Shown one piece after another: positions 3,118 to 47,664 of a DNA stretch of 64,000 nucleotides. The position numbers and the translations under genes were made by a program. The notes beneath the pieces were generated by a model. That model saw nothing but the letters and a program-made list of their open reading frames with translations. It ran no database searches and was not told where the DNA came from. This stretch comes from Pomphorhynchus laevis (taxonomy: Eukaryota; Acanthocephala; Palaeacanthocephala; Echinorhynchida; Pomphorhynchidae): positions 124,001 through 188,000 of the forward strand of contig WNNJ02001290.1 of NCBI GenBank assembly GCA_012934845.2. The letters run 5' to 3'. Numbering within the stretch: position 1 is the stretch's first letter; each line of letters opens with the position of its first letter.

Positions 3118-4254
3118 ATCAGTTATTGCAGCTTTTAAACAGCATTTTATTATTGCATCTTTTTATTATCAAGTAGTATAATATAATATATTATATTATT
3201 TACATTTGATATATATTATTTATAATATATACATAATTTAGTATAATATATTTATATCATACAATATGTATCATTTGATATCACATTATTTGCTGGCATA
3301 ATCTCAATGATCGACTGTACAATGTGTCGGCCCTCATTAACCAGACAATTCTTGTGGGAAGAGAATTACTTTACATGTTACACTAAACAATTAATGTAAC
3401 TGAATATATTGTAATCGATTTGTGCATCTATCTATCCGGTTCCAGATAAATCTATTACTATTTTCACCCACTTTGCAATCTTGTTCTTCATATGCATTTC
3501 TATGTACTACTCTGTTTTATGCGGTGATCCCAAATAAACTTTAAACTTAAGGATATTTATACGAAATCTATAATCTAGTCCTATCTAAAGTTTCAATACT
3601 TTTAGTCGTCGTTTGCTGATACAACACACATCAAATGCATATCATATGTGCTTCATGGAAGAAACATATTTTTAGATATCTGATAAGGGGTAAAGTTGCT
3701 GTCACAAAATATGTCATCGCTACTGGGTCGCCTTACGTAAACCCTTCTGCTAAAAGGGTTTTATCTTGGACAAGTGGTATTGGTCTTTTTGTTACAAATT
3801 TCTCAAAACTTCATATAATGCAGGAAATACGTTTGGGATATAATCAAGCGCGAATTTGGGATTCAGTGTTAAATGCATTACTTGCATTAATTTAAGGCAC
3901 ACATACGCCATTTCGCTACTTAACCTCATATCTAATAGCGTAATTTTCCTCTTCAACACCACCCTTTTAGAAACACACAGCTGTACATTTCCAGCGACAT
4001 CTGCGATTTCGTTTGCAATATTTCGTTAAAATTGCTTTGACCGTGATTTATTTGCCCAGTTCATTCATTCCGATTGTCGGACTTTTTACCTTTTGTCTAA
4101 TGAAACTAATCGGCTTGCGGTCAATGCAATTTAATTCCCTGAACAAATTTCTGCTGTAGCTAATCGGCAGACAAATTTTGGCAATATTATTATATAACAA
4201 TAATATTGTATATTATATGTATTGAGTAATATTGATACAATGCATAATATCATG
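3118..4254. other. AT-rich spacer with possible RNase H-like scrap
   Basis: Mostly non-coding. 3170-3260 is a near-pure A/T palindromic tract. An 86-codon ORF on the plus strand (3635-3895) has no recognisable motif. On the minus strand, about 4190-3990, a short frame reads DRKPISFIRQK, loosely like the TDxKxL segment of LTR-element RNase H. It is interrupted by stops and is too short to classify. Confidence 0.35.
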
Positions 4255-4410
4255 AATTTACTCAAATGATACCATTCCGCGTGAATTTCTTGTAATACAT
4301 ATAAGCCCGACGCGAAAGAATGATGACTGCCGTTTCGTCATCACAATAACTCATCAGTGTCAGATTCTTATCACTACTGAATGCAGAGGAGGACTAGCAG
4401 ACGGCAATCA
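4255..4410 (-). repeat. Hammerhead repeat unit, copy 1
   Basis: First of two direct copies of one repeat, with starts about 312 bp apart (4255 and 4567). The first ~65 bp on the plus strand, including CCATTCCGCGTGAATT and GACGCGAAAGAAT, are nearly identical in both copies. The family is read on the minus strand, where it contains a hammerhead core. A ~310-bp spacing is typical of ribozyme-bearing satellites and small retroelements; that comparison comes from established knowledge of hammerhead satellites, not from a search. Confidence 0.75.
4326..4408 (-). ncRNA. Hammerhead ribozyme, type III, complete core
   Basis: Read on the minus strand. The 5' arm ATTGCCGTC (4400-4408) pairs with CGGCAGT after GAAA to give a 7-bp stem III, including the A15.1-U16.1 pair. 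Cleavage would follow the GUC. A stem I hairpin of about 42 nt follows, with ends UGCUAG/CUGACA pairing in 5 of 6 positions. Then come CTGATGAG (4350-4357), stem II GUUA/UGAC (one G.U) and CGAAAC (4332-4337). All invariant core boxes are present and in the right order. The large stem I with an internal bulge fits natural hammerheads that use loop contacts. Self-cleavage is predicted, not shown. Confidence 0.8.
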
Positions 4411-4564
4411 ACGAATAAATCATGTGAATGATGTACTAGAAAATTTCTAGTAACATAATCTAGAGTGCTGAATTAGCACTACAATAGCTTCACCAAATAG
4501 GAGCATTAGCTAAAAAGTACTGGCAAATGCAAGCACAAGGTATCTATATATCCGCTTACTCTGA
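4411..4564. other. Spacer between hammerhead repeat copies
   Basis: About 155 bp that joins repeat copy 1 to copy 2. It would make up the rest of a ~312-bp monomer if the two copies are a true tandem. It contains a short palindrome around 4438-4452 and no open frame. Confidence 0.45.
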
Positions 4565-4729
4565 TATGAATTTACTCAAATGATACCATTCCGCGTGAAT
4601 TTCTTGTAATACATATAAGCCCGACGCGAAAGAATGACGACTGCCGTTTCGTCATCTCAATGACTCATCAGTGCCAGATTCTTATCACTACTGGATGCAG
4701 AAGAGGACTAGTGCTAGTCCTCTTCTGCA
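4565..4729 (-). ncRNA. Hammerhead repeat copy 2, 5' arm replaced by palindrome
   Basis: On the minus strand CTGATGAG (4664-4671) is followed by a perfect 4-bp stem II (GUCA/UGAC) and CGAAACGGCAGTC. The core is therefore kept, and stem II is better paired than in copy 1. The 5' arm of stem III, expected beyond stem I, is absent. Instead the sequence turns back on itself in a perfect inverted repeat with 16-bp arms (4696-4711 and 4714-4729) separated by 2 bp. The copy therefore ends in a fold-back junction and probably cannot form the full ribozyme alone. Confidence 0.65.
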
Positions 4730-5280
4730 GTAATATTGATACATTGCAGTATTACAATAATATATAATATTATATATAATATCATATAATATAACATATT
4801 AATGCATATATCAGAACATACAATAATATATTATGATATATTATTGTATTATGATATATTAACATGAGTTAACAAATTAACTCATGACATTGAGTAATTA
4901 AATGCTTTATTCATTGCTGATATTTGCTTTAAAATTCTGTTGAATTTTAAGGCGGACTAATCTGAACTAAGTAATTTGTTTATATTCTTAGTTATTCATA
5001 TTATGCTATTTTATAATATACAACTTTATTAACTATTTGTTATGGCATTTGTAAATTTTAATTATGTACGTTATAAAAAAAATCAGATTTGATTTGATTT
5101 TCAAGTGAGAAAATTCAATTTGGTTTGAAATATATAATTTGTCAGAATTGATGGAAACAAATTAAATTCGTTAATTGAAAGCTTTTTACATTTTTGATGA
5201 TGCGTTGTAATATCTACTATTAATATTATATATTTTAATATTAATAATAATTATATATTATTTAATGAATTTTCTCAAGA
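4730..5280. other. AT-rich spacer
   Basis: Poly-A/T sequence with repeated ATAATATATTA blocks (4735-4865). No gene or RNA fold is supported. Confidence 0.5.
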
Positions 5281-5282
5281 TA

Positions 5283-5420
5283 GAGTGAGACCATTCCGCG
5301 TGAATTACGTTAATAAACATTTATGCTAGACGCGGAAGAACAACAATAACAGTAACAAGTACCATTCTGCCATCACAATGACTCATCAGTCCCAAATTTC
5401 TCCCAATGGGAAGGATACTA
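5283..5420 (-). ncRNA. Diverged hammerhead repeat copy 3
   Basis: It shares the flank CCATTCCGCGTGAATT (5291-5306) and the GACGCGGAAGAA block with the other copies. On the minus strand CTGATGAG (5382-5389) is kept, and stem II GUCA/UGGC still pairs through a G.U. The GAAA box has become AGAA and the upstream stem III arm is imperfect. Stem I can form UCCCA/UGGGA. It is likely an inactive relative. Confidence 0.55.
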
Positions 5421-5524: not shown

Positions 5525-5640
5525 CGATAACGGTAATAAGTATCGTTTCGTCATCCTAACGACTTATCAGTCCCAGATCCCTCTCAGTGGGATCTGGGAC
5601 TGATGAGTCATTGTTATCGTTGTTCTTCCGCGTCTGGCTT
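5525..5640 (-). ncRNA. Inverted hammerhead pair (copies 4 and 5)
   Basis: A 21-bp inverted repeat, 5561-5581 against 5589-5609 with one mismatch, joins two oppositely oriented copies. The minus-strand copy keeps CGAAAC but reads CTGATAAG, changing a core G. The plus-strand copy keeps CTGATGAG (5600-5607) but lacks about 30 nt covering the rest of stem II and the GAAA box before it rejoins the shared TTCTTCCGCG flank. Neither half keeps every core base. The head-to-head arrangement repeats the fold-back seen at 4696-4729. Confidence 0.6.
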
Positions 5641-12991: not shown

Positions 12992-13023
12992 GTTGAATTC
13001 CCCCGTCCAACTTGTCTAACACA

Positions 13024-15480
13024 ATGGTGAGTAAGTCTGAGCCTTTTTCACTGAATATTCTTCAGTGGAATTCGGGAGGTGCTTCTGCCCTTAGACTTTT
13101 ATCTGGTAGAGATGCAGATGTTATAGTCCTTCAGGAGACGCGGTATATCCGTATCCCCCATGACATTACTCGATTTATCCCTCAGCATATATACACCCAC
13201 TTCATTCCGTATATAACGCCTCCTCACTCCTCTTCATATCAAGGTCTTTTAACCTTATTTAAATGCTCCTTAAGATCTTCCCTCCTTCTTAACCATTCTT
13301 GTTCTGCCCTATCTTGTCTAGCTATATCACTTCGTAAGAACGGTAAATGTATCAGCATAGCCAATATTTATATACGCCCAGGAGAAATTCACAAGAACCG
13401 TGACCTCCTGGATCGTTTATTGGATAGCGGCTATGACATGTTACTTGGTGATTTCAACGACAGAACTGGTCGTTGGATTAATGCAGCAAACCGCAGAGCC
13501 AGGAACGACTATCTTATTCACAAACCACCATCCCCCACCTTTCATTGCTCAACAACTAATTCACTCCTCGACATATTACTGCTACATAAGAAGTGGTTGT
13601 TAAAACCCTTCTGTACTGAGCAGTCGCGCCAACAACAGACCACCTCTCATGACCTAATTCGTTGGCGATTAGAGGAAGATACGTTGCTGAGGAGAAGGTT
13701 CCACTTTGATCCCGTCAGGGTGGCCTTCTTTCAGGCAGCTATCCAACTATTCCCCCGAATTGGGAATGAGAGTTTGACCAAATTTAATACTTACCTCTCT
13801 TCGCAAGCTACTGCGATACTATCGACTACCTATAAAGGTCGCATATACAATCCCACTCCAACAAAACTCAAGGTCCTAGCTAAAATGCTATATCTTCCTA
13901 CTCTCTCTGTTTTCGCCAGACAAGCCCTCTCGAATGAATACTGGAGCACTAGATATAGGTTCCAGTTGAGTAGGGATAAGGCAAGCATTTCTCGCCTTAG
14001 CCCTTCTCAGTCTTCCTTCTGGAAGATACTCAAGAAGGAGAAGTTTGTCTGTTGGAAGGATAGAGCATTAGGTTGGATTGATAGAATAGACCTTGATAAA
14101 GTTTTGGAGGAGTCACTATCCCTTCACAATTATGGAGCCACTCATTCACCCCAACCAATCCCGCCTTGGTGTGACTTCAGGAGTAGGGACTTATATGTTA
14201 CAGATATTTTTAACTCATGGGGGCCACTCCCGGGCACCTCCAGAACCCATGCGCCACTATCCACTCGTGTCTGTCAGCTTTTAATAGACAGTCAGAGAAA
14301 GGAAGTCGCCATAACAATGCTATTAGCCTCCCCTTCCGACATTGCTAACATAAATATTAGCCGTCGAGTATTTTTACCTAAAAAGAAGTCGATTACATGT
14401 CCCAAAGATCCGCGGCCTATTTCAATTCAAAACTCCCTCATCTCCATTTACGAAAAAGCGCTTGCGCGTAAAATCCGCGACCATCTAAATAGGCAAAATT
14501 TAATCCCACCAGGTTTTCATGGGTACGTAAAAGATCGCTCGGTCTATTCAGCAATAGGTGAAGTGCAACAGTTTTGTCAGGATAACAGTCATCAGCTTGC
14601 TGTGGCTGTCTTTCTTGATTTTTCGGCTGCATTTGACCGCATTTCCATTCCTTTTGTTATCACTTCTCTCAGGTCCCTCGGGTTGCCTGCGAGAATTGTT
14701 AACAGGGTGGAAATATTGCTGTACTCCAAGCGATTCTTCTATGAAGACGACCCTGATGCACGTCAGTTCTATCCTATTACGGGTGTGCCTCAAGGCTCCC
14801 CACTTTCTCCAATCTTGTATCTTGCTGCCTCCATTGAACTATACAAAAAATTCAAACGCGATCAACATATTGTGGTATATGCTGATGATACCACAGCCCT
14901 GTTCTCTGGACGCAGGTGCAAAGATGTAGTCTCTGACATCAGCCATTTCTTTACAAGATTAAAAGATCAGCTGCCCATTTCCAATCTTGTTTTAAACTCC
15001 TCCAAATCGCAGGTGGTTGTCTTTAATGGCGCCCCTGTGACAAAGAAAAAACTCAAGAGATTAGCACTCTCAGCTCTATCTTCCATCCTGACTAATCAAC
15101 CACTCCCTACCTTCACAAATCGAGTAAAATACCTGGGATTCACCATTACGGTGAGCTGGTCAGCGAAAGCTGACCTGGATAGACTAAAACGTATCCTGAA
15201 GAGAGCTAGATGGGCCCTGAAACGGGCCCAACATCTGTCATTGAAAGAGAAATCCCAAGTGCGCCTCTGGGGTACTTGGGCTATCTCGGGATTAGTTTTC
15301 TTTTCAAGAGGACGTCCCCCAGAACAAAGACTAAGGTTTCTCAAGCTCCTCGTCTCGCGTTTACCCAGCATAGTCCGCACCGACTGGACTCTTCGGGGGG
15401 GGGTGAAAGACCCCGGGTGGTTCAGTCGCAAGGCGGCGTGTTGGATTGGTTGGGGGGGGCTCAGATCCCCATGGATTTGA
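13024..15480 (+). CDS. LINE ORF2: endonuclease-reverse transcriptase
   Basis: Open for 818 codons from ATG 13024; the frame extends upstream without an ATG. The N-terminal apurinic-type endonuclease shows LQWNSGGAS near residue 14, VLQETR near 36, GDFND at about 142-146 and SHD near 208. The reverse transcriptase has PRPISIQN near 463, FLDFSAAFD at 530-538, GVPQGSPLSP from 587 and the catalytic YADD at 619-622. About 195 residues follow, with no RNase H motif. All catalytic residues I can check are present, so the enzyme may have been active recently, although ORF1 next to it is broken. The C-terminal 30 codons run through two G-rich tracts (15395-15460) that could hide indels. Confidence 0.9.
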   Translation: MVSKSEPFSLNILQWNSGGASALRLLSGRDADVIVLQETRYIRIPHDITRFIPQHIYTHFIPYITPPHSSSYQGLLTLFKCSLRSSLLLNHSCSALSCLAISLRKNGKCISIANIYIRPGEIHKNRDLLDRLLDSGYDMLLGDFNDRTGRWINAANRRARNDYLIHKPPSPTFHCSTTNSLLDILLLHKKWLLKPFCTEQSRQQQTTSHDLIRWRLEEDTLLRRRFHFDPVRVAFFQAAIQLFPRIGNESLTKFNTYLSSQATAILSTTYKGRIYNPTPTKLKVLAKMLYLPTLSVFARQALSNEYWSTRYRFQLSRDKASISRLSPSQSSFWKILKKEKFVCWKDRALGWIDRIDLDKVLEESLSLHNYGATHSPQPIPPWCDFRSRDLYVTDIFNSWGPLPGTSRTHAPLSTRVCQLLIDSQRKEVAITMLLASPSDIANINISRRVFLPKKKSITCPKDPRPISIQNSLISIYEKALARKIRDHLNRQNLIPPGFHGYVKDRSVYSAIGEVQQFCQDNSHQLAVAVFLDFSAAFDRISIPFVITSLRSLGLPARIVNRVEILLYSKRFFYEDDPDARQFYPITGVPQGSPLSPILYLAASIELYKKFKRDQHIVVYADDTTALFSGRRCKDVVSDISHFFTRLKDQLPISNLVLNSSKSQVVVFNGAPVTKKKLKRLALSALSSILTNQPLPTFTNRVKYLGFTITVSWSAKADLDRLKRILKRARWALKRAQHLSLKEKSQVRLWGTWAISGLVFFSRGRPPEQRLRFLKLLVSRLPSIVRTDWTLRGGVKDPGWFSRKAACWIGWGGLRSPWI

Positions 15481-35399: not shown

Positions 35400-36750
35400 A
35401 AGAGCATCGTGCATGTTTTGGAATTCTAATAGCGCAGAATTTATCGTGATATCCATGGACAGATGCTCTCTAGATCAGCGGTATTTTCCTTGCGCAGGGT
35501 TCTCTCCATTTAGTCTGTAAGAATGTCGGAGTAAGATAAAGTTCAGAATCTAATGAAGTCGTCTTTGGAAAGAACGTGTTCAGGTTAGTAGTGAATGATG
35601 CAGTGTGTTCAAGATTAAATGTTAAGCAGATGTATTTAGAGCAAGGTTCTAACGATGAATTATCGCTATAACCGATAAAGAACATTTTTATGAGACTCCA
35701 ACAACACGCTTCACGAATCTCTATTGACACTTGTCCAACTGCTGAAAATTGAAGAGACTTAAATCCGACCAGATAACTGGCAAAGCATATGAAACTATGG
35801 GGAGCATACTTCGAAAATACCGGAGGGCTCCTGAAAAAGATAAAGAACCTAAGTCTTTTGCATAAGAGGTTGCTACAACTAATTTCGAGGATTTACGATG
35901 TAGGTGATCAGTAAATGACCATTTCGACGAAAGTAATACTCCCAAATAATTGTAAATATTACAGAATTCTGAATCTACGTTCCCTATTCTCAGCGTGTCA
36001 CATCGACGCAAAGGTCCACCTAACCGAAATTTAAGGGCTTTCGATTTATTTACATTCACCGTCAACTGATTTGATGAACAATAAGATGACAGAGCATCTA
36101 ACGCACTTTGAGCGTATAAAAGATGTTTGGCTAATATTACTAGATCGTCGGCATAGAGGATACAAGAGACTTCATTCGATGCATGACAAAGATGCATAGG
36201 CAAATCCATAACAAAAGAGGAAAATAATAAAGGGCTGAGTGGATCTCTCTGTAAAACACCGCGATTAACAAAAAAGAAATCAGAGGTGTTGATACCATCA
36301 GATACTTTAAGGCGATTAGGATGAAGCACAGAATAAATAAGATACAAAAAGCGACCACTAACGGACACTCTGGTGGAAAGTTTATCAAGTAACAAAGAAC
36401 GATTCACTGTGTCAAATGCTCGCTCAAAGTCAACAAAAGTAGCATACAACGGTCTACGATTAGCGAAACAATTGGTGACTTCGTCACGGACATGCTTTAT
36501 TGCATCGGACTTTGACCTTTTCGGGCGAAATCCATACTGCCCCGTAAATAAGAGATGCTCGTGACACTTAATAAGGCGCATATACATTATATGAGTCAAT
36601 AACTTATAACTGTGATTCAATATCGCAATCCCCCTGCACGCAACCAATGAATCATAGTCAACTTTACCCTTATGCAGGATCTTAATTACACCGTCGCGTT
36701 TTTTTAGTAGAACATTTAAGAAAATTTTTGTTTTGGAATAAATTTGCAAG
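35400..36750 (-). mobile_element. LINE RT fragment, largely open
   Basis: A 342-codon frame (36749-35721, minus) followed by 35730-35470 in another frame. RT motifs in order are YGFRPKRSKSDAI, FVDFERAFD, VLQRDPLSPLLF (QRDP where QGxP is usual), LYADDLVIL and NYLGVLLSSKWSFTDH. No endonuclease is seen upstream, so the copy is 5' truncated. The frame after the RT shifts near 35725. It is the best copy of the family also found at 30535-31400. Confidence 0.75.
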
Positions 36751-37150
36751 TTTCATGCAAAGTGAATTCAACAATAATAGCTGCCTTGCTTAATGAAAAT
36801 CGTCTGTCAGTCGACTATAAGGCTCGTGGTCAGATTCCACTCACTCGTGTATTTATAGCTCATAGGTCCCAATGGAATGCTCGATTATCGCGTTATGACT
36901 ATACACATAGTCAATCATCGTTACATTTGCAGTCAGATTGGATGCAACCGAATGCGAATGGACGTTGTGTTCTATTCAGAGCTTGCATTCACGGGTATCA
37001 TGACAAAATTTGTAGAATTCCTTTGAAGTTAAAATCTAAATCGATCAGAAATTTTCTGCACATTCAGCGGAAAGTTGTAATTGCAAGACGATAAATTCGT
37101 TTTCATATATCGACAAACTTTTGTTGTCCTCTTGATTTGTTCTCATTTTG
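36751..37150 (+). other. Possible LINE 3'-end scrap
   Basis: A 116-codon frame (36744-37094) whose end, HGYHDKICRIPLK, resembles the 3' end HGYHDKFCAIRIPK decoded on the minus strand near 35450-35410. This suggests a third fragment of the same family, on the plus strand. The first 70 codons have no match. Confidence 0.35.
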
Positions 37151-37585
37151 TAATCATTAAATTTATTTTAGTATTTTTCACCATATTTGAAAAATGGCAG
37201 TGACTTAATAAAATTATGCTGGCATCTACGGATGACTACATCACCATTATTGTGAAAATAGATTGCCCTAACACACTCGTGACTTCACATGCATTTGCCG
37301 CTTCTGTGTTTCTTCGTGTAAGGACATCAATTATTTAAAGGAATACATTCATCTCTAAGAATTAACTCTATTGCAGCTGGAAAAACTATGATTTGATTTG
37401 AATTTCTGCTTTGTCCAGTGGCAAAAGAGGCTTTATAATAAATTCTCTCAGATTATTATTCTTACAAGGCTTGGCCATGAGGCTATTTTGCCTGATCACA
37501 ATTTGAAAAATAAAAATAAAAAACAAAAAGGGATCAACAAGCAAAAACAAATCATTTCAAATATGTCCACAAATCGTTTCTTATT
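37151..37585. other. AT-rich spacer
   Basis: No gene seen. The right end adjoins the 3' end of the interrupted CR1-like LINE. Confidence 0.45.
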
Positions 37586-38195
37586 TTATCGAGCATCCTT
37601 GTCTTTAATAATTTTTTGAACAAATGCGAACTCATGACGGAGAAATTTCGTTCCTATCAAGTTAAGAAACAAAAATCGTGATAATATCGTTTTTATTCTT
37701 AGCAAATTTAATCGAGATACGTAATCCAATATCGCATTCGAACATAGACGAGAACCACGCCTTAGGACTGACTCTATATATGTCCTTTCTTGTTTAGTGA
37801 TCAGGAAAGAAGCCTGAATTGCATACTCTAAATTCGGGCGAACCAACGTGTTTAGCAAATTTTTAAAGACATTAGTGGAAATCATAAGGAATGAGTTTTT
37901 TTACAATATATAGTGCACGAGTAGCGCTTTTTATTGCTCTTTCACTATTATGTTTTGTTTCTAATGAGACATGCACGATAATTCCTAAATCCCTATGATT
38001 TGATACTTCGGTGAGAAGAACATCGCCGATATGATATGTAAAATTACTGGATTTTTTACCCATCCTCATAAGTACACACTTATCAACATTAAGATGTTTT
38101 CAGTAGAGCGGCGTCAATCATGCAATCGATCCAAGTCTGCCTGTAAATATTTAAGTCCGCCTTGTAACTTTCAATACCCCTTTATTTCTCAAGCT
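37586..38195 (-). pseudogene. Interrupted CR1-like LINE, 3' third
   Basis: Minus-strand reading KLQGGLKYLQADLDRLHD (38190-38120), NHRDLGIIV (about 37990) and VRPNLEYAIQASF (about 37810) is the part of a CR1-type RT that follows the catalytic box. It continues the frame that stops at 41530 (see the piece 41515-42014) once the plus-strand insertion is removed. Confidence 0.65.
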
Positions 38196-41100
38196 TCGTT
38201 TTCTTGACAATTATCGTCGTGTTTACTGTTCTTTGCGTTCCCGTAATTCCCTTCTTTTACGTATCCTCAACTACTCTACCTCTTTTGGCTTCCACTCCTT
38301 CCTTATGGCTGCTCCTCTTTCGTGTAATCATCTGCCCATTCATATACGCCAATCAACCTTCCGCGATTCAGCCTTGGAATCCGTCTAACTGTTCCATCGA
38401 TACTCTCCGCCGCACAGATTCGTGCATCCAACACTTAAACATCAATCCCATTTCAACACCAACAGCGACACCTCACCACTGCCATTACTCTAAAAATAAC
38501 ATTTCCGTTATGTACTCTAACTGTTTAAGCATGTACAACAAATTTGACGAAATATTGTGTCTCGTTAATTCAATGAACCCAAACATCATAGCATTGAGCG
38601 AAACCTGGCATAACAACGATATATCTGATAATGAAATCTCAATATCAGACTACTTTGTTATACGATCGGATCGAACCGCATCAAAAGGAGGTGGAGTTTT
38701 ATTATACGTCAAGCAACCGTTAACCATCATCGAGCACAGCATTGTATCAGATGATTCATACAACGAATATCTGTGGGCAACAGTATCTTCTCCTGATAGA
38801 CAGAAACTAAAAATCGGTTTATTTTACCGCTCTCCGCGCTCCGCAACTGATAAGATTGGCATATCTTTACGACATTACCTAACAAGCTTATCACCGATCA
38901 TTATCCTAGGAGACTTCAATATGCCTTATGTCAATTGGGACCATATACTTCAACACATGGCTGTGATGTTGAATCATCCAATCTCCTTAATACGTTCAAC
39001 GATCTCAATCTAACCCAGCATATTCACGAACCCACTAGAAGGATTAATCAATCATCTGCCATTTTAGACCTCTGCTTATCACGAGGGGAACCCACAATTG
39101 ATGGAATCTCTCAGCCCCCTATTGGCCACAGTGATCATTGTGTCATTAGGCTGGCGCTTTCTGTAAGTCTCTTTAAAACAACCCCCTAGGCAAAACCCAA
39201 ATTGAATCCCTTCAAAGCGAATTTCGCAAGTATGACGCAAGCTATTCGAAACATTCAATGGACTAATCCATATGTAAATGGCATAGATCAGTGCTGGGAA
39301 AATTTCAAATCTACCTTGATCAATGCTCTTAATTACTTCTCCCCTTTAAAACTTCAGCGCACATCCCACAAAACTCCCATTTGGTTTGACTCGCAGATTA
39401 AACAAATGATTAAGACAAGAGACAAAATTTACAAAAAATTCAAAGAAGGGAAATGTTCTTAGACCGATTACAAGGAATTACGAAATCAAGTAACGGCACT
39501 CAAACGTCAGAAATGCAGGTGCTTCGTTTCCAATCTTTGTCGATCATCAAAAAGATATCCCAGTAAATTGTTCAAACATATCAGCTCATTTAAATCAACT
39601 ACCCCTGAGATCAACTCTATATTTATGGAAACCGGTGAGCTCACATTTGATGACAAAGCAATTGCCAATATTTTCCTGGATCAATTCAAGCTAGAGAGTC
39701 CTACCTGTCAGTATTGCCCTCGAGTCTCCACAGCTCAATATCCGTGTTACAAATTTACTCCATTTGATAAATTTGAGGTACTTAACGAACTTCTAAAGCT
39801 ACCACGATCAATTGCGGCAGGACCAGACAATATTCCTCCAATTCTTCTTCGGGAACTTGCACCGGTAATATATTAACCTTTACACACCATATTCGATTTC
39901 TCCTTGTCAACAGGCTGTATACCATCAGATTGGAAATGTTCTATAATCCGACCTCTCTACAAAAAAGGCGACCGTAATCTAGCAAGCGACTATCGACCAA
40001 TAAGCCTTACCTGCATTGCTTGTAAAGTGCTAGAGAAACTGCTTTTTAAACGAATCATCGGACACCTAGAAGAGAACAAAGTACTCTGCGACAACCAGCA
40101 TGGTTTCCGCTCAGGAAGATCTACTGTCACAAACCTCGTACTTGCGAGAAGTGATTGGACCAGATATGCCGATGCTGGAGTTAGTGTTGATGTTTTGTTT
40201 TTCGACCTCAGCAAAGCATTTGATCGGATATACTATGATGTCCTCCTTATTACGCTGGAACAGTACGGCATCAGAGGAACCCTCCTAAATTGGATTAACT
40301 CCTTCCTTAGAAATCTTAAGAATACTGTATTGGCCAATAAACAAATGTCAAAGACAAGAACTCCTGGACTCGGTGTTTCTCAGGGATCGGTACTCAGTCC
40401 ATTGCTCTTCATTATTTACATCAACGAGCTTACTACAGCTATTTCGAGTCCATGTGGAATATATGCCGACGACTTGAAAATATGGCGACCAATAATCGAT
40501 AGCCAAGATCCAATGATACTCCAGAGAGGCATTGATAATATTAAGGTATGGTGTAATCAACGGGGACTAGTATTAAACCCCGATAAGAAAACATATGCGC
40601 ATCGGACATCTACACAGCAATTCGTCATATACCATTGACGGAAGAGAAATTGAAACAGTTCCCCAATTTCAAGACCTTGGAGTGATCGTAAATAGAAGCT
40701 TATCGACCATCCCACATACCAGTCACACAGTTGCTAAATGTCGTCGAATTTTAGGACATTAGAAGGACCATTGGCCAGCTTGACGCATCCAGTTTTAAGT
40801 TAATTTACAATGCTTATGTCTTATCTTTATAAAGATACGCTTCACCTGCCTGCCACCCTCAAACTACGACAGAGATGAACCTTTACGAATCCATATTACG
40901 CAAGGCCACACATCTTGTACCCAGCCAACGCAAGCTCTCATTCATTTTTCGACTCCACGCACTTGGTGTGACCACAGTGAAGAAATCTTTAAAGTCATCT
41001 GATTTAATGTTTGTGTGGACAACGCTCAATGTTCAAAAAGGGCAGAGGGAACATGTTTGTCGTAAACTGTTCGAGCTTCGAAATTCAAACAGATTGAGGG

Positions 41101-41514
41101 GACATCACCTCACGTTAAAAACCCACATTCGTCCACGAAGAAGATTTAATACAATTGTCAACCGAACGTGGAAAAGCTGGAATAAGCTACCAAGTCAAGT
41201 GGTTTTGGCCTCCAGTATTTTGTCCTTCAAGAGAAGTCTGAAAATTTACTAACTTAGAACATTCTGATTTTCATTGATATTTGTTTTTTACCCTGTACCC
41301 AGCATGTACGAGCTCTACACTCTTTTGCTGCTGTTGTATTTATTTTTTTGCTGCTGTTGTATTTATTTTTTTTGCTGCTGTTGTATTTAATAATAACCTC
41401 TCTGCCGTCCTTTAAACTCCAAATTCGATCACAGCAATTTAACAAATTTATCTGTTTGATTTTTGCTGTTTTTTAATTAGTGGACTTGTAAGCGTACAGT
41501 TGGCACTCATTTGC
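38196..41514 (+). mobile_element. CR1-like LINE inserted in another LINE
   Basis: One ORF2 is readable over 38500-41252 in six pieces. The endonuclease has VMYSNCLSMYNK, NPNIIALSETW, GGGVLLYVK, GDFN (38909) and the GHSDHCVIRL end (39127). The linker has PIWFDSQIKQMIKTRDK. The RT has RPLYKKGD, DYRPISL, HGFRSGRSTVTNL, FFDLSKAFD, GVSQGSVLSPLLF and the YADD catalytic box (about 40460). The C-terminus has RKATHLVPS and NRTWKSWNKLPSQV. Two stops and several frameshifts inactivate it. The 3' UTR (41253-41514) carries three ~23-bp repeats. Its orientation is opposite to the host element. Confidence 0.8.
41323..41392 (+). repeat. Short 3'-UTR tandem repeat
   Basis: Three consecutive copies of a ~23-bp unit, TTTGCTGCTGTTGTATTTAT plus extra T, lie in the 3' UTR of the plus-strand CR1-like element. 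Short repeats near the 3' end are common in CR1-type elements. Confidence 0.7.
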
Positions 41515-42014
41515 CACTTTAAATAAATTATTGTTGTTACAGTCATATATCTCGTATAGCAATCCAAATTTCAAGATCATCAGCGAATGCAGTGATTGTT
41601 CTCAATACGTAAAAGTAAATCGTTAAAAACGTGATGAATAATAGGGGCCTGGTGTAGAACTCTAAGGGGCAGCACCAATCGACATACTTCTTTTTTGCAG
41701 ATAAAGATTCACCAAATCTTACCTTAGACGTACGCAATGAAATAAAATTTTCAATCCAACAGCAGATCCCACGAGGGACGCGGTATTGTATTAAGAGTAA
41801 CACAAAACTTTTACGTGGAACACGATAAAAGGCTTTCTAAAAATCTAGAGATACTATGTCGAGAGAATGTACCGATCTTAGTGCTTCCATCTAACTCTCG
41901 CTGTAAACAAGTTAATTAGACATGAACGGCCTTATCTGAATTTGTGTTACGAATATGCAAGAATGCGTTTAAAGTTAAGATGCTAAAGTAGACTTTTGCA
42001 ATAATTCGTTCTAG
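41515..42014 (-). pseudogene. Interrupted CR1-like LINE, middle RT piece
   Basis: On the minus strand KVLERIIAKVYFS (42015-41975) starts where the piece ending near 46178 stops. Then come SLDIVSLDF and KAFYRVP (about 41860-41830), VPRGICCWIENFIS (41780) and the catalytic box FADDLEIWIAI (41570-41540). It ends at EIYDCN near 41535, where the plus-strand CR1-like element begins. Confidence 0.65.
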
Positions 42015-45000
42015 TACTTTAAAAAAAGATTTATTTTAACGTGACAAATGCGTGCCAGCCCACGCTTACATGACCACAATAAACAAAAATTTAAATCATG
42101 TGTCGAGAAGGTGTGAACGGAGGAGGTATTTGAATGTAATAAAGGAGGGAGCACGGCGGACGTCGAGAGGGAGTTGATTCCAGGCGAGTGGGGCGGCGAC
42201 CAGGAAGGATCGGATACCATAGTTGTTGGAGTAATTAGGAACGTGGAGTAAGAGGGTATGACGGGAACGCAGCGATAGCGAGGTGGAGCGAGTGTCGTCT
42301 AAGAAAGGAAGGTTGATGAACGATGGGGACGGACAGCGATGAGACGAAAAGTAACGAGAAGAAGGCGGAGTTTGATGCGGATATGGATGGTGGGCCAGGA
42401 GAGTTGGACAAAATATGTGGATGTGCGATCGAAGCGACGGAGACGAAAGAGCACTTGAACGGCGGAGTTGATTATTCGTTGTAGGGGTATGATTATGGAT
42501 TTTGGAGAATTCGCGAAAAGGCTTAGGCGGTAGTCGATTTTAGGGAAGAGAAGCGATAAAAGAAGAGACATACAAGAACGGAAGTCGATAAGGAGGCGGA
42601 TACGGCGGATGTCACGGAGAATTAAGTTAGACGAGTGGACCTTGTTACAGACGAAGGGTTTAAGAGAAAGGTGATCATTGAAATGGAAGTCTAGGAAAGT
42701 GAGATTGTGTACTATTGGGATGATAGAGGAGGCAAAATATACAGTGTGAGGAGATATGCTTGGTTTACGGGGGAGGATCCACATCATTTTGGACTTGTCA
42801 AGTTTTAGAACGAGATGGAGATTGAAGAGGCGTTTGTATATAGAAGAAAGACAGTTCGAGGCAGAAATGCCGATATCGTGTATGCGATGTGCAGGTGCAT
42901 GAGCATAGATAAGAATGTCATCGGCGTATTGCATTACCTTAAATGAGTTAGGTTTGATAAACGGAGAGAGATCGCCAATCATGAAATAGAAAGCAGGGGA
43001 CCTAGGACTGAACCTTGTGGGACCCCGCAAAAATATAGGGATGGGAGGGGAGGATGATGAATTAGAACATACTCGAAAGAAACGGTCGGATAGATATGAG
43101 GCAAATCATGCTACGGAGGAGGTAGAAAAGTCGTAATCACAACGAATGCGAGAAAGGAGGACGGAGTGATCGGTAATGTCGAAGGCAGATGAGAGGTCGA
43201 GGGAGATTGAACACTATATAGAGCCTTGTCTCGAGAAATGAGTAGGTCGTTGTAGACTCTCATGCATGCGATTTCTGTGGAGTGATTAGAGCGAAAAGCG
43301 GATTGGAAAGGAGGGTACCGATTGGATGAGGAGAGATAAGCTCTGATCTGTATTAAGATGAGGGGTTCTAAGAGCTTAGGAAGAGTAGGGATTAGTGAAA
43401 TGGGCAATAGCTAGAAGGAATTTACGGGTCGAGCGATTGTTTCTTAAGGAGGGGACGAACGATTTCAGATTTCCAGTGTGAAGGGAATATACGACTGCGG
43501 ATGGACGAGTTAAACAAGGTTGTGAGAAAAGAGGATATCGATGAGCATATGAATTTAAGTATGTGAGTAGGCAGGGGATCGGCAGGTGAGGTTTTGTTGG
43601 GCAAGGACATGAGGACAGATGATACTTCGGTAGGTGAGACAGGGAGACAATGAAAGAGTTCCGGGAGGATGATGCTAGGCGGGGCAGAGTGGGATAGGAT
43701 GGAGACAGGGGTGTGAGAGAGCAACGTGGATACTTTGGTCCGGAGAAATGACGAATAATCATGGGGATTTATGTTGCAAGACGATGAGGAGCGAGCTAGG
43801 ATTGAGTTAAAAGTATTGACGATGTTGGTGAGGCTTGAAGGGCAAGTGAAGATCGAGAGTGGATGTGAGTTCAGAGTCGAAAAGCAAGGCGAGATCGTGA
43901 TGAAAGGAATATGTTATGTTGGGATAGGATAAAGACGATTTGAGTAAGGCAGAGTAGAGAAGGGGAGGTCAAGATTTCTCCAAGAGAGACGTAGGATTGT
44001 ACGTGTGGGAGGAGGGGTGTGGTTGTGAGTGAGATCAAGGGTAACGAGAAAGTGATCGGATAGAGCAGGATCGAAAATGGACAGTGAGGTGTAGGCAGCA
44101 AAATGATAGAGGACAGCGATGATGTCGAGTGCCCCACCAAGGATATGTGTGGGGGCAGTAGAGGTGGGTTTGTAGTTATAGTTGGATAGAATGTTGATGA
44201 ACTGGAAGGAGTCGGTGGAAGTGGGGCGGTCGAGGCGGATGTTGAAGTCGCCAAGTACGATTGAAAAAATGGAGAACAAAGAACAGTTAGGCAAAAGGTC
44301 AGCGAGTTTGTTAAAAAATAAGGTGTAAGAGCATATGAACCAGGACGGTATACAATGGCGAGATCTAGAGTGATCGGGTTAGAAGAACGACAAGTGAGCT
44401 GTTCAAAAGAGCAAGTACTGAAAGGGGAAGTGATTTTGCGAATAGACGCGGGGTGACGGGCGAATGCGACAATGACCCCATGATTTGAAAATTTAGAAGG
44501 GGATAAGCTGAGGGAATGAGTAGATTTGACTAGTGATTAACCGGCGGATGGAGATGTCGTCAGAATCCGAGTGCCAGGATTCGGTGAGACAGAAGAGATC
44601 GGTGGATTGCTTGGTGAATAGGTTGAGGATGAGATCGGATTTATTGAGAATATATCTAGTTTTGAGGAGGACGAGGCGGACTCCGTGTGTGGTGGTGATA
44701 GGTGCTAATGGAGAAGACACATAGGGGAGATGGAGCGCCATCGAATTTTTGGGCGGGTGTGGACAACTTGAAAATTACCGTCGATGCTTCGGATGGAGAA
44801 AGATGTTTCGCCGTTTTCCTCGCGACGGCGTTTTTCGATGCGGGCAGATGAAAGTTAAGCAATTTCGGAGGGGGTGCAATCGGGGAAAATGCGAGTGGTT
44901 GAAGAGGACATGAGTTTGAATTGTTGGGAGAGGACAGAAGACGCGTGAGAGAAATGCTTGAAAAAAATTTTAAGGAAGGGGCTTGGAAGGATTAGATTGA

Positions 45001-45153
45001 GAAGATTTGTTTGGGCGGATGAATGCGATAAGTGAAATGTTTTTGAAAAAGGATGGGTTATCCACAGATACAAGAGACGAGATGATGGATCTGAATGCGG
45101 AAACATCGTGGTCGAGACGTGCTTGTGGAGATAAAGTGGTGGAAGGAGTGATA

Positions 45154-45717
45154 TTAGTGACGATGACTCGACGATCGCGAGAATGAAAGCGTTTCAGTAA
45201 AGGAGGACGAGTAACGTGAGTTGGTAAGATCACGATAGGAGAGCTGGGAGTGGGAGTAGGTTGGACATCGGAAGACAAATATGATTTGGATAATATAGAG
45301 AGAATGGTGAGCGATATGAGGAAATGTTATAAGTGGAAGGATTGTGGAGGTTGGTGGATGTGATTTTGATTTAGGGATGTAGGTTATTGAGAAACGAGAC
45401 AGAAGGGAAGAGACGGAGGTGGCGGGAAGTGATGACATGGGATTATAAGTGAATGTGCTGACATGATCAGTGGGTTGACAAAGGACATCATAAACGACTG
45501 GGGTGGTTTGAGTGCACACGTTGGAGGTTGATATGTTCTTATGGGAGAGGTCACTTATGAGTTTGGTGGCACAAAAGCCACATAGGAAGTCTTCTTTAGA
45601 TTTACTGTTGTCACATGCGATTGTAGTCCAGACGCTGCATTCGTGTGTCGAGCAATGTACTTTTAGTTGAGCACAGTTGGTGTCGGTCGTAGTTGTCTTC
45701 TTACGTCCTCCCGTCAA
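45154..45717 (-). pseudogene. LINE ORF1, PHD-finger-like
   Basis: 187-codon frame with start codon at 45715-45717 (minus). Residues about 14-56 carry the zinc-binding pattern (Cys, Cys, His, Cys, Cys, Cys-x2-Cys). The rest is Ser/Thr/Pro-rich with no domain, and the ORF probably runs on by frameshift into 45278-44970. Fingers like this occur in ORF1 of several LINE families; a role in RNA or protein binding is inferred only. Confidence 0.6.
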
Positions 45718-45781
45718 CGTCCTTGCGTGTGTTTAAACTTAAATTTGCTACTAATTGAAATGATAGGTTTTTCAGCGAGCG

Positions 45782-46147
45782 GAACTGGATTGATCTTGAA
45801 CTGGATTGATCTGGAACTGGATTGATCTGGAACTGGATTGATCTGGAACTGGATTGATCTGGAACTGGATTGATCTGGAACTGGATTGATCTGGAACTGG
45901 ATTGATCTGGAACTGGATTGATCTGGAACTGGATTGATCTGGAACTGGATTGATCTGGAACTGGATTGATCTGGAACTGGATTGATCTGGAACTGGATTG
46001 ATCTGGAACTGGATTGATCTGGAACTGGATTGATCTGGAACTGGATTGATCTGGATCTGGATTGATCTGGAACTGGATTGATCCGGAACTAGATTGATCT
46101 GGAACTGGATTGATCTGGAACTGGATTGATCTGGAACTGGATTGATT
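45782..46147 (-). repeat. 16-bp minisatellite at LINE 5' end
   Basis: About 23 head-to-tail copies of CTGGATTGATCTGGAA (plus strand), almost identical, with a few single-base variants near 46050-46095. Because 16 is not a multiple of 3, all frames pass through, and the minus strand shows a 16-residue periodic frame. It lies between the 5' end of the minus-strand LINE and its ORF1, the place where LINE promoters sit, so it may act as a repeated 5' UTR. Confidence 0.85.
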
Positions 46148-46177
46148 GTAAGAATTTATAATAACCAAGACTATCTT

Positions 46178-47664
46178 TAGAAAGAACACTTGTCGAACTG
46201 ATAGGGCGAAAATCTACACAAGAAGTCGCTGGCTGTTTTTTAGGGATTGGCACAACAATAGAAGACTTCCATATTGCAGGAATCCACGAATTGATCAGGC
46301 TAAATTAAAATATATGAGCTAAAACACTACTTACGTCAGATCCAACCGCATTAATTAGGTAAGGTGACTATCCTCTAGGTCAAGAGAGCCAAATCGGTCA
46401 AGCTTTGTGATAAGTGCAATATTTAAGATGCACTGATTGGCTTAACGAGATTCTGAGTAATATTGTGAATGGAATACCATTTTAAAGAGTAAATAGACGA
46501 AACAATAGTCGATGGAGAATGGAAGCTGTCCGCTAGGCATTCACCAATTTCTGACTCAGTAGAATAAACATATTCACCAGAAGTAATGAATGCAATATTA
46601 GAGGAAAATATCCTTGATCCTTTCAAATATGACCAAAAACGTTTTGGTTAATTCCCGATGCAATTAATTCCCAATACATAAGTGAATGCTATTCGCTTAT
46701 GTATTTTCATTCTATTGCAGAGGTTGTGCACATATCGATACTTATCTAAGTTTTCAGAATGGGTTCGAGTAATAGCCTACGGGACATTGCGCAGTTATGA
46801 CACTGCACGAAGTTCATGATCAAACCAATGAGGGCGAGTGGAATAATTTAAAGTTCTCCGTTTCAGAGCCAACTTATATGGCGAATTTAAGAAAAGGTTA
46901 TAAAGAATGGGTAACATATCTGAAACAGTAGACCTATAACTATTATAAAAAATGTAGAAAGCAACTAAGAGATGTTGGGTATCTACCCTATAACAATTTC
47001 GCTTCGAATAACCCAATTTTGACCTACGAACGATCTTGGACACTAATTTAATGGAGAGAACACAGTGATCACTGTTACCTAGAGGAGGATAATACGCAAT
47101 ACTGTCGATATCTGCAATACATCTTGTGAAGCCTAGATCTAGAGTAGCACCGTTGACATGAGTTGGTTCTCTACAATGTTGCACTAAAAGTAGGCCAGCA
47201 AGAAATAAATCACGAAATTGTTTTGATACGCCTAAGCAGGCTTGATACCCATTCATATTCCAATCTACATTCGGAGGGTTGAAGTCACCTAAAGGGACAA
47301 ATTGTTGGGATGAACAAAAATTAGATAAATAATCCTCAAGCCGATCTGATATCAAAGTGAAATATGGAGATACATAAACAACATAAACATTTAATTTCAA
47401 CAATTGATGATTACCAGTAAAAGACAGACACTCATATGACCACTCAGAATCACAAAGATATGATATATTTAATGTTGAGAGATCGTGTCGAACGAATGCT
47501 ACAACTCCTCCACCTCGCATACATTGTTGTATATTACAACAATGTAATATATACATTGTAGATATACATTGTTGTATATTACATATACAACAATGTATTA
47601 ATATAAAACAATGTATGTCCACACAACTGGAGCAGCCAGCCAAGTAGATGTAGCTTTGAATCAA
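46178..47664 (-). pseudogene. Interrupted CR1-like LINE, endonuclease and RT start
   Basis: A 289-codon frame (47664-46795) carries GGGVVAFVRHDLS, the GDFN motif as LGDFNPPNVDW, LDLGFT and GNSDHCVLSI of an apurinic-type endonuclease, then RPHWFDHELRAVS. Downstream pieces read SRIFSSNIAF, SESEIGECLADSFHS and WIPAIWKSSIVVPIPKKQ with DFRPISSTSVLSK, RT motifs 1-2, ending at 46178. The frame resumes at 42015. The first ~40 codons are made of AT-rich flanking sequence and are not element protein. Confidence 0.75.
47520..47609. repeat. Short palindromic AT repeats
   Basis: Several copies of ACATTGTTGTATATTACA and its inverse lie in 90 bp before SINE copy 1. The motif ATACAACAATGTAT recurs at 47999-48012 before copy 2, so it may mark insertion-site sequence duplicated around the SINEs. 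Confidence 0.5.

Follow-up and report, generated by a model that had tools for sequence, protein, structure and literature searches.

What is a hammerhead motif doing in the genome of the acanthocephalan Pomphorhynchus laevis, and which kind of hammerhead is it? We addressed this question for a 64,000-nucleotide stretch of contig WNNJ02001290.1 (hereafter the window; GC content 34.9%), the minus strand of which had been proposed, in a sequence-only reading, to carry a complete type III hammerhead ribozyme with a second copy nearby. Two minus-strand cores of the pattern CTGATGA...GAAAC are indeed present, at 4357–4332 (copy 1) and 4671–4646 (copy 2), offset by 314 bp rather than the 310 bp given earlier. 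In copy 1 all the invariant boxes are in place, as had been stated. Read along the minus strand, the 5′ arm of stem III (4401–4410; alignment and descriptor) is followed by a GUC triplet with C17 at 4400, a 42-nt helix I with a closed terminal region (4358–4399; alignment and folding), the core box CUGAUGA (4351–4357; sequence pattern), a 4-bp stem II with a 6-nt loop (4337–4350; sequence pattern and alignment), the core box GAAA (4333–4336; sequence pattern) and the 3′ arm of stem III (4324–4333; alignment), whose first base is A15.1 of the GAAA box. The predicted cut lies between 4400 and 4399, where it is placed by the descriptor and by a family-wide footprint of junctions discussed below. 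The arms of stem III (4410–4401 and 4333–4324) do pair, through ten pairs including one G·U and not through the seven perfect ones first counted.

The motif has type III hammerhead architecture. CUGANGA, GAAA and an NUH triplet stand in register, and of the three helices I and II are closed and III is open, which makes the topology type III; the unconstrained minimum free energy (MFE) structure of copy 1 is another fold (−25.6, compared with −8.2 for the hammerhead as drawn). While the assignment to type III stands, the word "complete" does not. Stem I of copy 1 contains a C·A mismatch and a decayed distal part. Copy 2 keeps its core and stem II intact (4646–4671, minus strand; sequence pattern), as had been said, but it has lost the 5′ arm of stem III together with the cleavage triplet. 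Their place at its 5′ end is taken by a fold-back, a perfect 16-bp inverted repeat with a 2-nt spacer (4696–4711/4714–4729, spanning 4696–4729; repeat search and junction analysis). Given the damaged stem I and non-hammerhead MFE of copy 1 and the missing triplet of copy 2, both look like decayed members of a family. The two lie in a 146-bp direct repeat with 96% identity (4252–4397 and 4566–4711, minus strand; repeat search), which takes in most of helix I together with the core and the sequence onward to the 3′ end.

Could such a likeness arise by chance? A type III descriptor, the limits of which were chosen with the motif already known, matched once on the two strands of the 64-kb window, and none of 150 dinucleotide shuffles contained any match. 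The sequence-only reading had proposed scoring with the Rfam type III model, and this returned nothing in the window at the gathering score, one of the two outcomes that the reading had named as counting against the motif. Hammerhead_3 (RF00008), the best-scoring model of its clan there, has a cut-off of 48.5 bits and scored 22.1 and 18.6 in the window; its best score in the genome, among 68 candidates scored, was 33, also below the cut-off. Because the gathering cut-off is missed, the repeat is not filed under RF00008; the short helix I of that model, compared with 42 nt in the Pomphorhynchus family, probably explains the miss.

Covariation, on which the earlier reading had also relied, gave no support. 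The change from GUUA/UGAC to GUCA/UGAC between the copies is a one-sided wobble change, and among 58 distinct relatives three pairs were changed on both sides, with a mean of 3.2–3.4 in shuffled alignments. The drawn helices pair in 89.7% of 1781 cells of the same 58 rows, compared with 32–59% when they are slid along the alignment. As covariation does not exceed that of the shuffles, the helices are supported by conservation rather than covariation, and this conservation is in part by construction, since the rows (58 of 60 distinct ones, a truncated and a spurious row having been dropped beforehand) were selected by a pattern requiring a near-intact core and cleavage region. RNAalifold applied to the alignment yielded a weak consensus that differs from the hammerhead. 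Folded individually, 26 of the 58 rows have an MFE structure that retains 75% or more of the drawn pairs; for the window row the figure is 40%. In the relative at locus L021, which has an intact stem I, the MFE structure (−37.2 kcal/mol) is the three-way hammerhead. Whole units folded as circles gave z-scores from −0.6 to −5.2, a spread that permits no general claim on circle folding. A chance resemblance would fit the missing Rfam match and the absent covariation; faced with the empty shuffles, the fold of L021 and a junction footprint on the predicted bond, we give it practically no credence.

What the sequence-only reading missed is that the motif belongs to a dispersed mobile repeat of about 304 bp. 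With up to two mismatches, the core occurs at 2,445 places (1,274 + 1,171) in the genome (249 Mb, 3,242 contigs), and the reversed control at none; searches of the viral and prokaryotic collections for the exact core pattern yielded nothing. Units at fetched loci measure 296–315 bp and occur singly, in part or in arrays, such as the seven units at 304-bp spacing in L021, and divergent subfamilies are represented by L060, L062 and L064. Four reference units (303–315 bp, GC 0.40–0.42) bear no hammerhead core on the opposite strand. Like metazoan non-LTR retrozymes, the family consists of short, non-coding tandem repeats of less than 50% GC with a hammerhead in each. In the window, an older, diverged remnant of the repeat with 73% identity lies at 5282–5405 (minus strand; BLAST), and further old, diverged fragments adjoining the insertion occur at 5544–5583 and 5589–5617. 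LINE-type reverse transcriptase and endonuclease reading frames lie in pieces at 13012–15480 and 35721–47664, marking a part rich in transposable elements; a reverse transcriptase reading frame in the window, compared over 62% of its length, shares 78% identity with a protein of Pomphorhynchus laevis.

The two copies lie within one retrotransposed insertion at 4245–4728 (minus strand), identified by BLAST to family units and by its flanking duplication, which consists of about 1.5 units and a short fold-back arm. It is bordered by a 20-bp target-site duplication with one mismatch (left copy 4225–4244, right copy 4729–4748, 19/20 identical; flank comparison and repeat search). No open reading frame of at least 100 amino acids overlaps 4245–4728, and a protein with reverse transcriptase and GIY-YIG domains, as in Penelope-like elements, is absent there. 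Flanking repeats scoring 9 or more were found for 13 of 23 insertions in a first sample, compared with 29 of 506 mismatched flank pairs (excluding L012, L019, L025, L029, L030 and L034, 6 of 29 sources), and for 8 of 17 in a second, compared with 16 of 272 (excluding L068, L072 and L080, 3 of 20 loci). The duplications exceed 4 bp, as in metazoan non-LTR retrozymes.

The 3′ ends of the insertions are clustered: 39 of 80 fall at unit positions 137–160, 20 at 96–119 and 21 outside both, the class limits having been drawn after the data were seen. Inverted pairs are exclusively head-to-head (25, with no tail-to-tail pair, in 49 sources). In all 14 pairs with both ends clustered, one end belongs to each cluster; the remaining 11 have at least one end outside the clusters. 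Two internal 3′ end sites 30–40 nt apart are a trait of Penelope-like elements, and the two clusters and head-to-head arms together resemble the internal priming of that type. We conclude that the type III repeat moves by reverse transcription. Long arrays might instead suggest ordinary satellite DNA that was spread by DNA-level recombination and carries the hammerhead letters as passengers. The array at L025 (contig C516), for example, comprises 20 units by BLAST and shows, by eye, a higher-order periodicity of close to 2,040 bp. The family nevertheless includes short dispersed insertions with target-site duplications, clustered 3′ ends and a favoured 5′ end at the predicted cut, which makes the satellite explanation very improbable. 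Two loci have unusual arms: at L019 (2394–2617) a fold-back arm by the predicted cut has grown to about nine copies of a ~23-bp repeat, and at L021 (1239–1397) head-to-head arms form a long hairpin that gives a miRNA-like Rfam match below cut-off and whose transcripts could be sources of double-stranded RNA.

If the hammerhead takes part in this movement, its cut should be visible in the 5′ ends. The idea that these lie near the cut arose in the first 29 sources, and a margin of ±5 nt was set before a second sample was analyzed, which comprised 20 loci taken near the top of the core-match list with ends unknown at selection. In this second sample, 12 of 32 5′ junctions, distributed over 11 of the 20 loci, lie within 5 nt of the cut (p = 6e-10 versus uniform) and 14 within 8 nt; eight junctions, in eight of the 20 loci, fall exactly at the first nucleotide after GUC. 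The first set, for which the search query spanned the cut and so favoured copies crossing it, gave 10 of 46 within 5 nt and 12 of 46 within 8 nt, in a cluster from −3 to +6 with none exactly on the cut. When the reference was rotated by 170 nt the junction counts were identical, so the footprint is no query-edge artefact. Junctions at the ends of fetched stretches and segments shorter than 25 bases were excluded. The cleanest case, L066, is a 149-nt insertion from the cut to a 3′ site with a duplication of ~16 bp.

The same break is seen genome-wide. Of 538 copies of the 21-mer beginning at the cut, 440 have a C directly before it (392 have CCGTC) and 98 have some other base. Seventeen of the 98 still read CCGT and are point changes, which leaves 81 of 538 with a break exactly on the cut, a number that may include a few double mutants and, like the junction counts, contains non-independent cases from array mates, fold-back sides and duplicated contigs. 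The base preceding the core box, used as a control position, differs in 20 of 1115 copies. Where reverse transcripts stop at the scissile bond, the RNA would have ended there; many insertions cross the bond, so some templates would have been uncut multimers or circles.

The UGCC 5′ ends could instead derive from a transcription start or from another nuclease, leaving the hammerhead of the same element a relic without a role. Such a reading draws on the modest conservation of the core among copies. In 77 instances found by BLAST only, variation is 4.3% in the core, 6.7% at the other positions of the stretch and 2.7% in the stretch 3′ of the motif; G8 is altered in 15 of the 77, and 57 have every core position intact. 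It also draws on the finding that the ribozyme is dispensable for insertion of an anole Penelope element in vitro (PMC11167929). It has to account, however, for a break placed exactly after the GUC of an otherwise complete hammerhead in both the second sample and the genome-wide count. A second hammerhead family of this genome, handled alike over 20 loci, has 25 distinct junctions (L052 and L053 overlap), two of which fall within 8 nt of its cut, one of them exactly on it. Simple Pol III A-box/B-box patterns have no match in the unit references. On balance we regard the relic explanation as unlikely, and we favor a hammerhead that makes many of the 5′ ends.

That second family is an unrelated repeat of ~296-bp tandem units with type I ribozymes (L049–L056, L085–L096), often located within TA repeats and in some cases with inverted arms. 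It exceeds the Rfam cut-off at no fewer than 62 places, and its matches to the type III family are short and insignificant. Its presence raises the possibility that the window motif, too, is a type I hammerhead as in other animals, with a short ACG/CGU stem III after GAAA and a cut after the next GUC. In 89.7% of cells such a 3-bp stem is possible. However, helix I does not form, since its first pair would be A·A, and of the junctions only 0 of 32 and 1 of 46 lie near the type I cut (70–84 nt downstream); on these grounds the type I fold was rejected. The window cores are also absent among the 72 RF00163 matches listed (73 of 40,608 first-look candidates were scored), and the best clan model in the window is Hammerhead_3. 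A type I assignment is, in our estimation, hardly credible; by topology and junctions the motif is type III and lacks the type I hammerhead characteristic of metazoan non-LTR retrozymes.

Taken together, the window probably holds one insertion, now decayed, of a retrotransposon that belongs to the retrozymes, is non-coding and non-autonomous, and often would have had self-cut linear RNA as its template. The motif, the tandem units, the duplications, the 3′ clusters, the exclusively head-to-head inversions of the sampled loci and the junctions at the cut site can be read from the DNA as assembled; from them we infer catalysis, the participation of a Penelope enzyme and linear RNA as a template. 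In the proposed cycle, read-through transcripts of arrays would cut themselves at GUC^UGCC. RNAs with a cut-made 5′ end, including some in which internal units remain uncut, would be picked up by a reverse transcriptase, most likely supplied by a Penelope-like element as putative partner. Target-primed synthesis would begin within the unit at one of two sites about 35–40 nt apart, and the cDNA would run off at the ribozyme-made 5′ end. Extension of both target strands would produce the head-to-head arms, and target-site duplications of about 10–20 bp would arise.

Candidates for the partner are encoded elsewhere in the genome. GIY-YIG is the endonuclease of Penelope elements, and we found 75 GIY-YIG domain matches, at loci including L038 and L048. 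The GIY-YIG genes of L038–L048 are probably of Penelope type, and their reverse transcriptase-like neighbours are, judging by motif recognition, presumably Penelope reverse transcriptases; a Pfam search with the reverse transcriptase-like reading frame of L047 gave no match. In L038 the GIY-YIG reading frame lies upstream of the reverse transcriptase-like one, an arrangement that we take to be that of elements with permuted domains. Short hammerhead-like motifs (CTGATGATGATAGC...GCTATCGAAA and similar) occur near several of the L038–L048 GIY-YIG genes. At L037 (contig C1660), the best GIY-YIG match resembles what we take to be bacterial UvrC and adjoins a lipoprotein-like reading frame, so this is possibly a bacterial contaminant contig.

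A Penelope element studied in vitro begins reverse transcription at two internal sites with a 30–40 bp tail between them, and cuts and extends both target strands (PMC11167929). In the anole element, top and bottom strands shared their start sites; in the Pomphorhynchus repeat, paired arms instead have one 3′ end of each kind. Cleavage by the anole ribozyme was dispensable for insertion in vitro, as noted above, and the ribozyme site was not the start or end of any read (PMC11167929). We think it somewhat better than an even chance that the Pomphorhynchus genome is a frozen record of ribozyme catalysis, in which the template owes its 5′ end to the type III hammerhead of an animal retrozyme, linear self-cut RNA and not the circle alone serves as a template, and a Penelope enzyme primes both target strands from two internal sites.

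The family combines features of several known systems. The metazoan non-LTR retrozymes, as described in the portions of PMC7229834 available, are likewise non-coding tandem repeats of 150–450 bp with less than 50% GC and a hammerhead per unit; their duplications are larger than those of plants, and Penelope elements have been suggested as their mobilisers. They carry type I hammerheads (PMC7229834 and PMC7761336, both available in part), whereas the Pomphorhynchus family carries type III. Their model has a circular RNA as template, and circles are the favoured template in the available text of the retrozyme papers (PMC7229834, PMC4918200); many Pomphorhynchus insertions, in contrast, start at the predicted cut, as a linear cleaved RNA would predict. 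Plant LTR retrozymes share with the repeat a type III hammerhead, a repeated arrangement and a non-autonomous nature (PMC4918200, PMC7229834, as excerpted). They have LTRs, a PBS, a PPT, 4-bp duplications and circles of 600–1000 nt (PMC4918200, in the text available), while the Pomphorhynchus unit is ~304 bp long, resides in an animal host and makes longer duplications.

The extended hammerheads known from HDV-like RNAs of toad and termite and from termite and dipteran genomes are also type III, animal and equipped with an unusually long helix I (PMC7936874, in the sections available). According to the same sections, the termite genomic motifs are isolated rather than tandem, with a stem II of 6 bp and a loop pseudoknot; the Pomphorhynchus family has a 4-bp stem II and, by inspection, no pseudoknot. 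Poseidon of Anolis resembles the repeat in its tandem pseudo-LTR layout with a hammerhead, its two internal reverse transcription start sites with a 30–40 bp tail, its AT-rich targets and its extension of both strands (PMC11167929). Unlike Poseidon, the Pomphorhynchus insertion has no reading frame of at least 100 amino acids and has a three-helix type III motif, and the Pomphorhynchus insertions record ends at the predicted cut that were absent from anole RNA-seq (PMC11167929). In R2, the 5′ junction of the element's RNA is likewise cut by a ribozyme, an HDV-like one of a different class, and R2 inserts site-specifically in 28S genes (PMC3774820, in the part available).

In the literature searched, chiefly outside subscription journals and partly in excerpt, we found no report of any animal with a tandem family of type III retrozymes, nor any paper connecting hammerhead ribozymes with acanthocephalans. 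We regard the repeat as a new form, a type III animal retrozyme that works like a metazoan non-LTR retrozyme. Hammerheads of eukaryotic repeats are in their vast majority type I, which the available text of PMC3088659 ascribes most likely to descent and possibly to a requirement of type I for propagation. That one genome holds both a type I family and a type III family of 2,445 core matches speaks against such a requirement. If our reading is correct, spread of hammerhead repeats in animals would be possible without type I architecture, and the ribozyme would have a direct part in insertion. Insertions that start at the predicted cut would allow this role of the hammerhead to be tested from the genome assemblies of any species.
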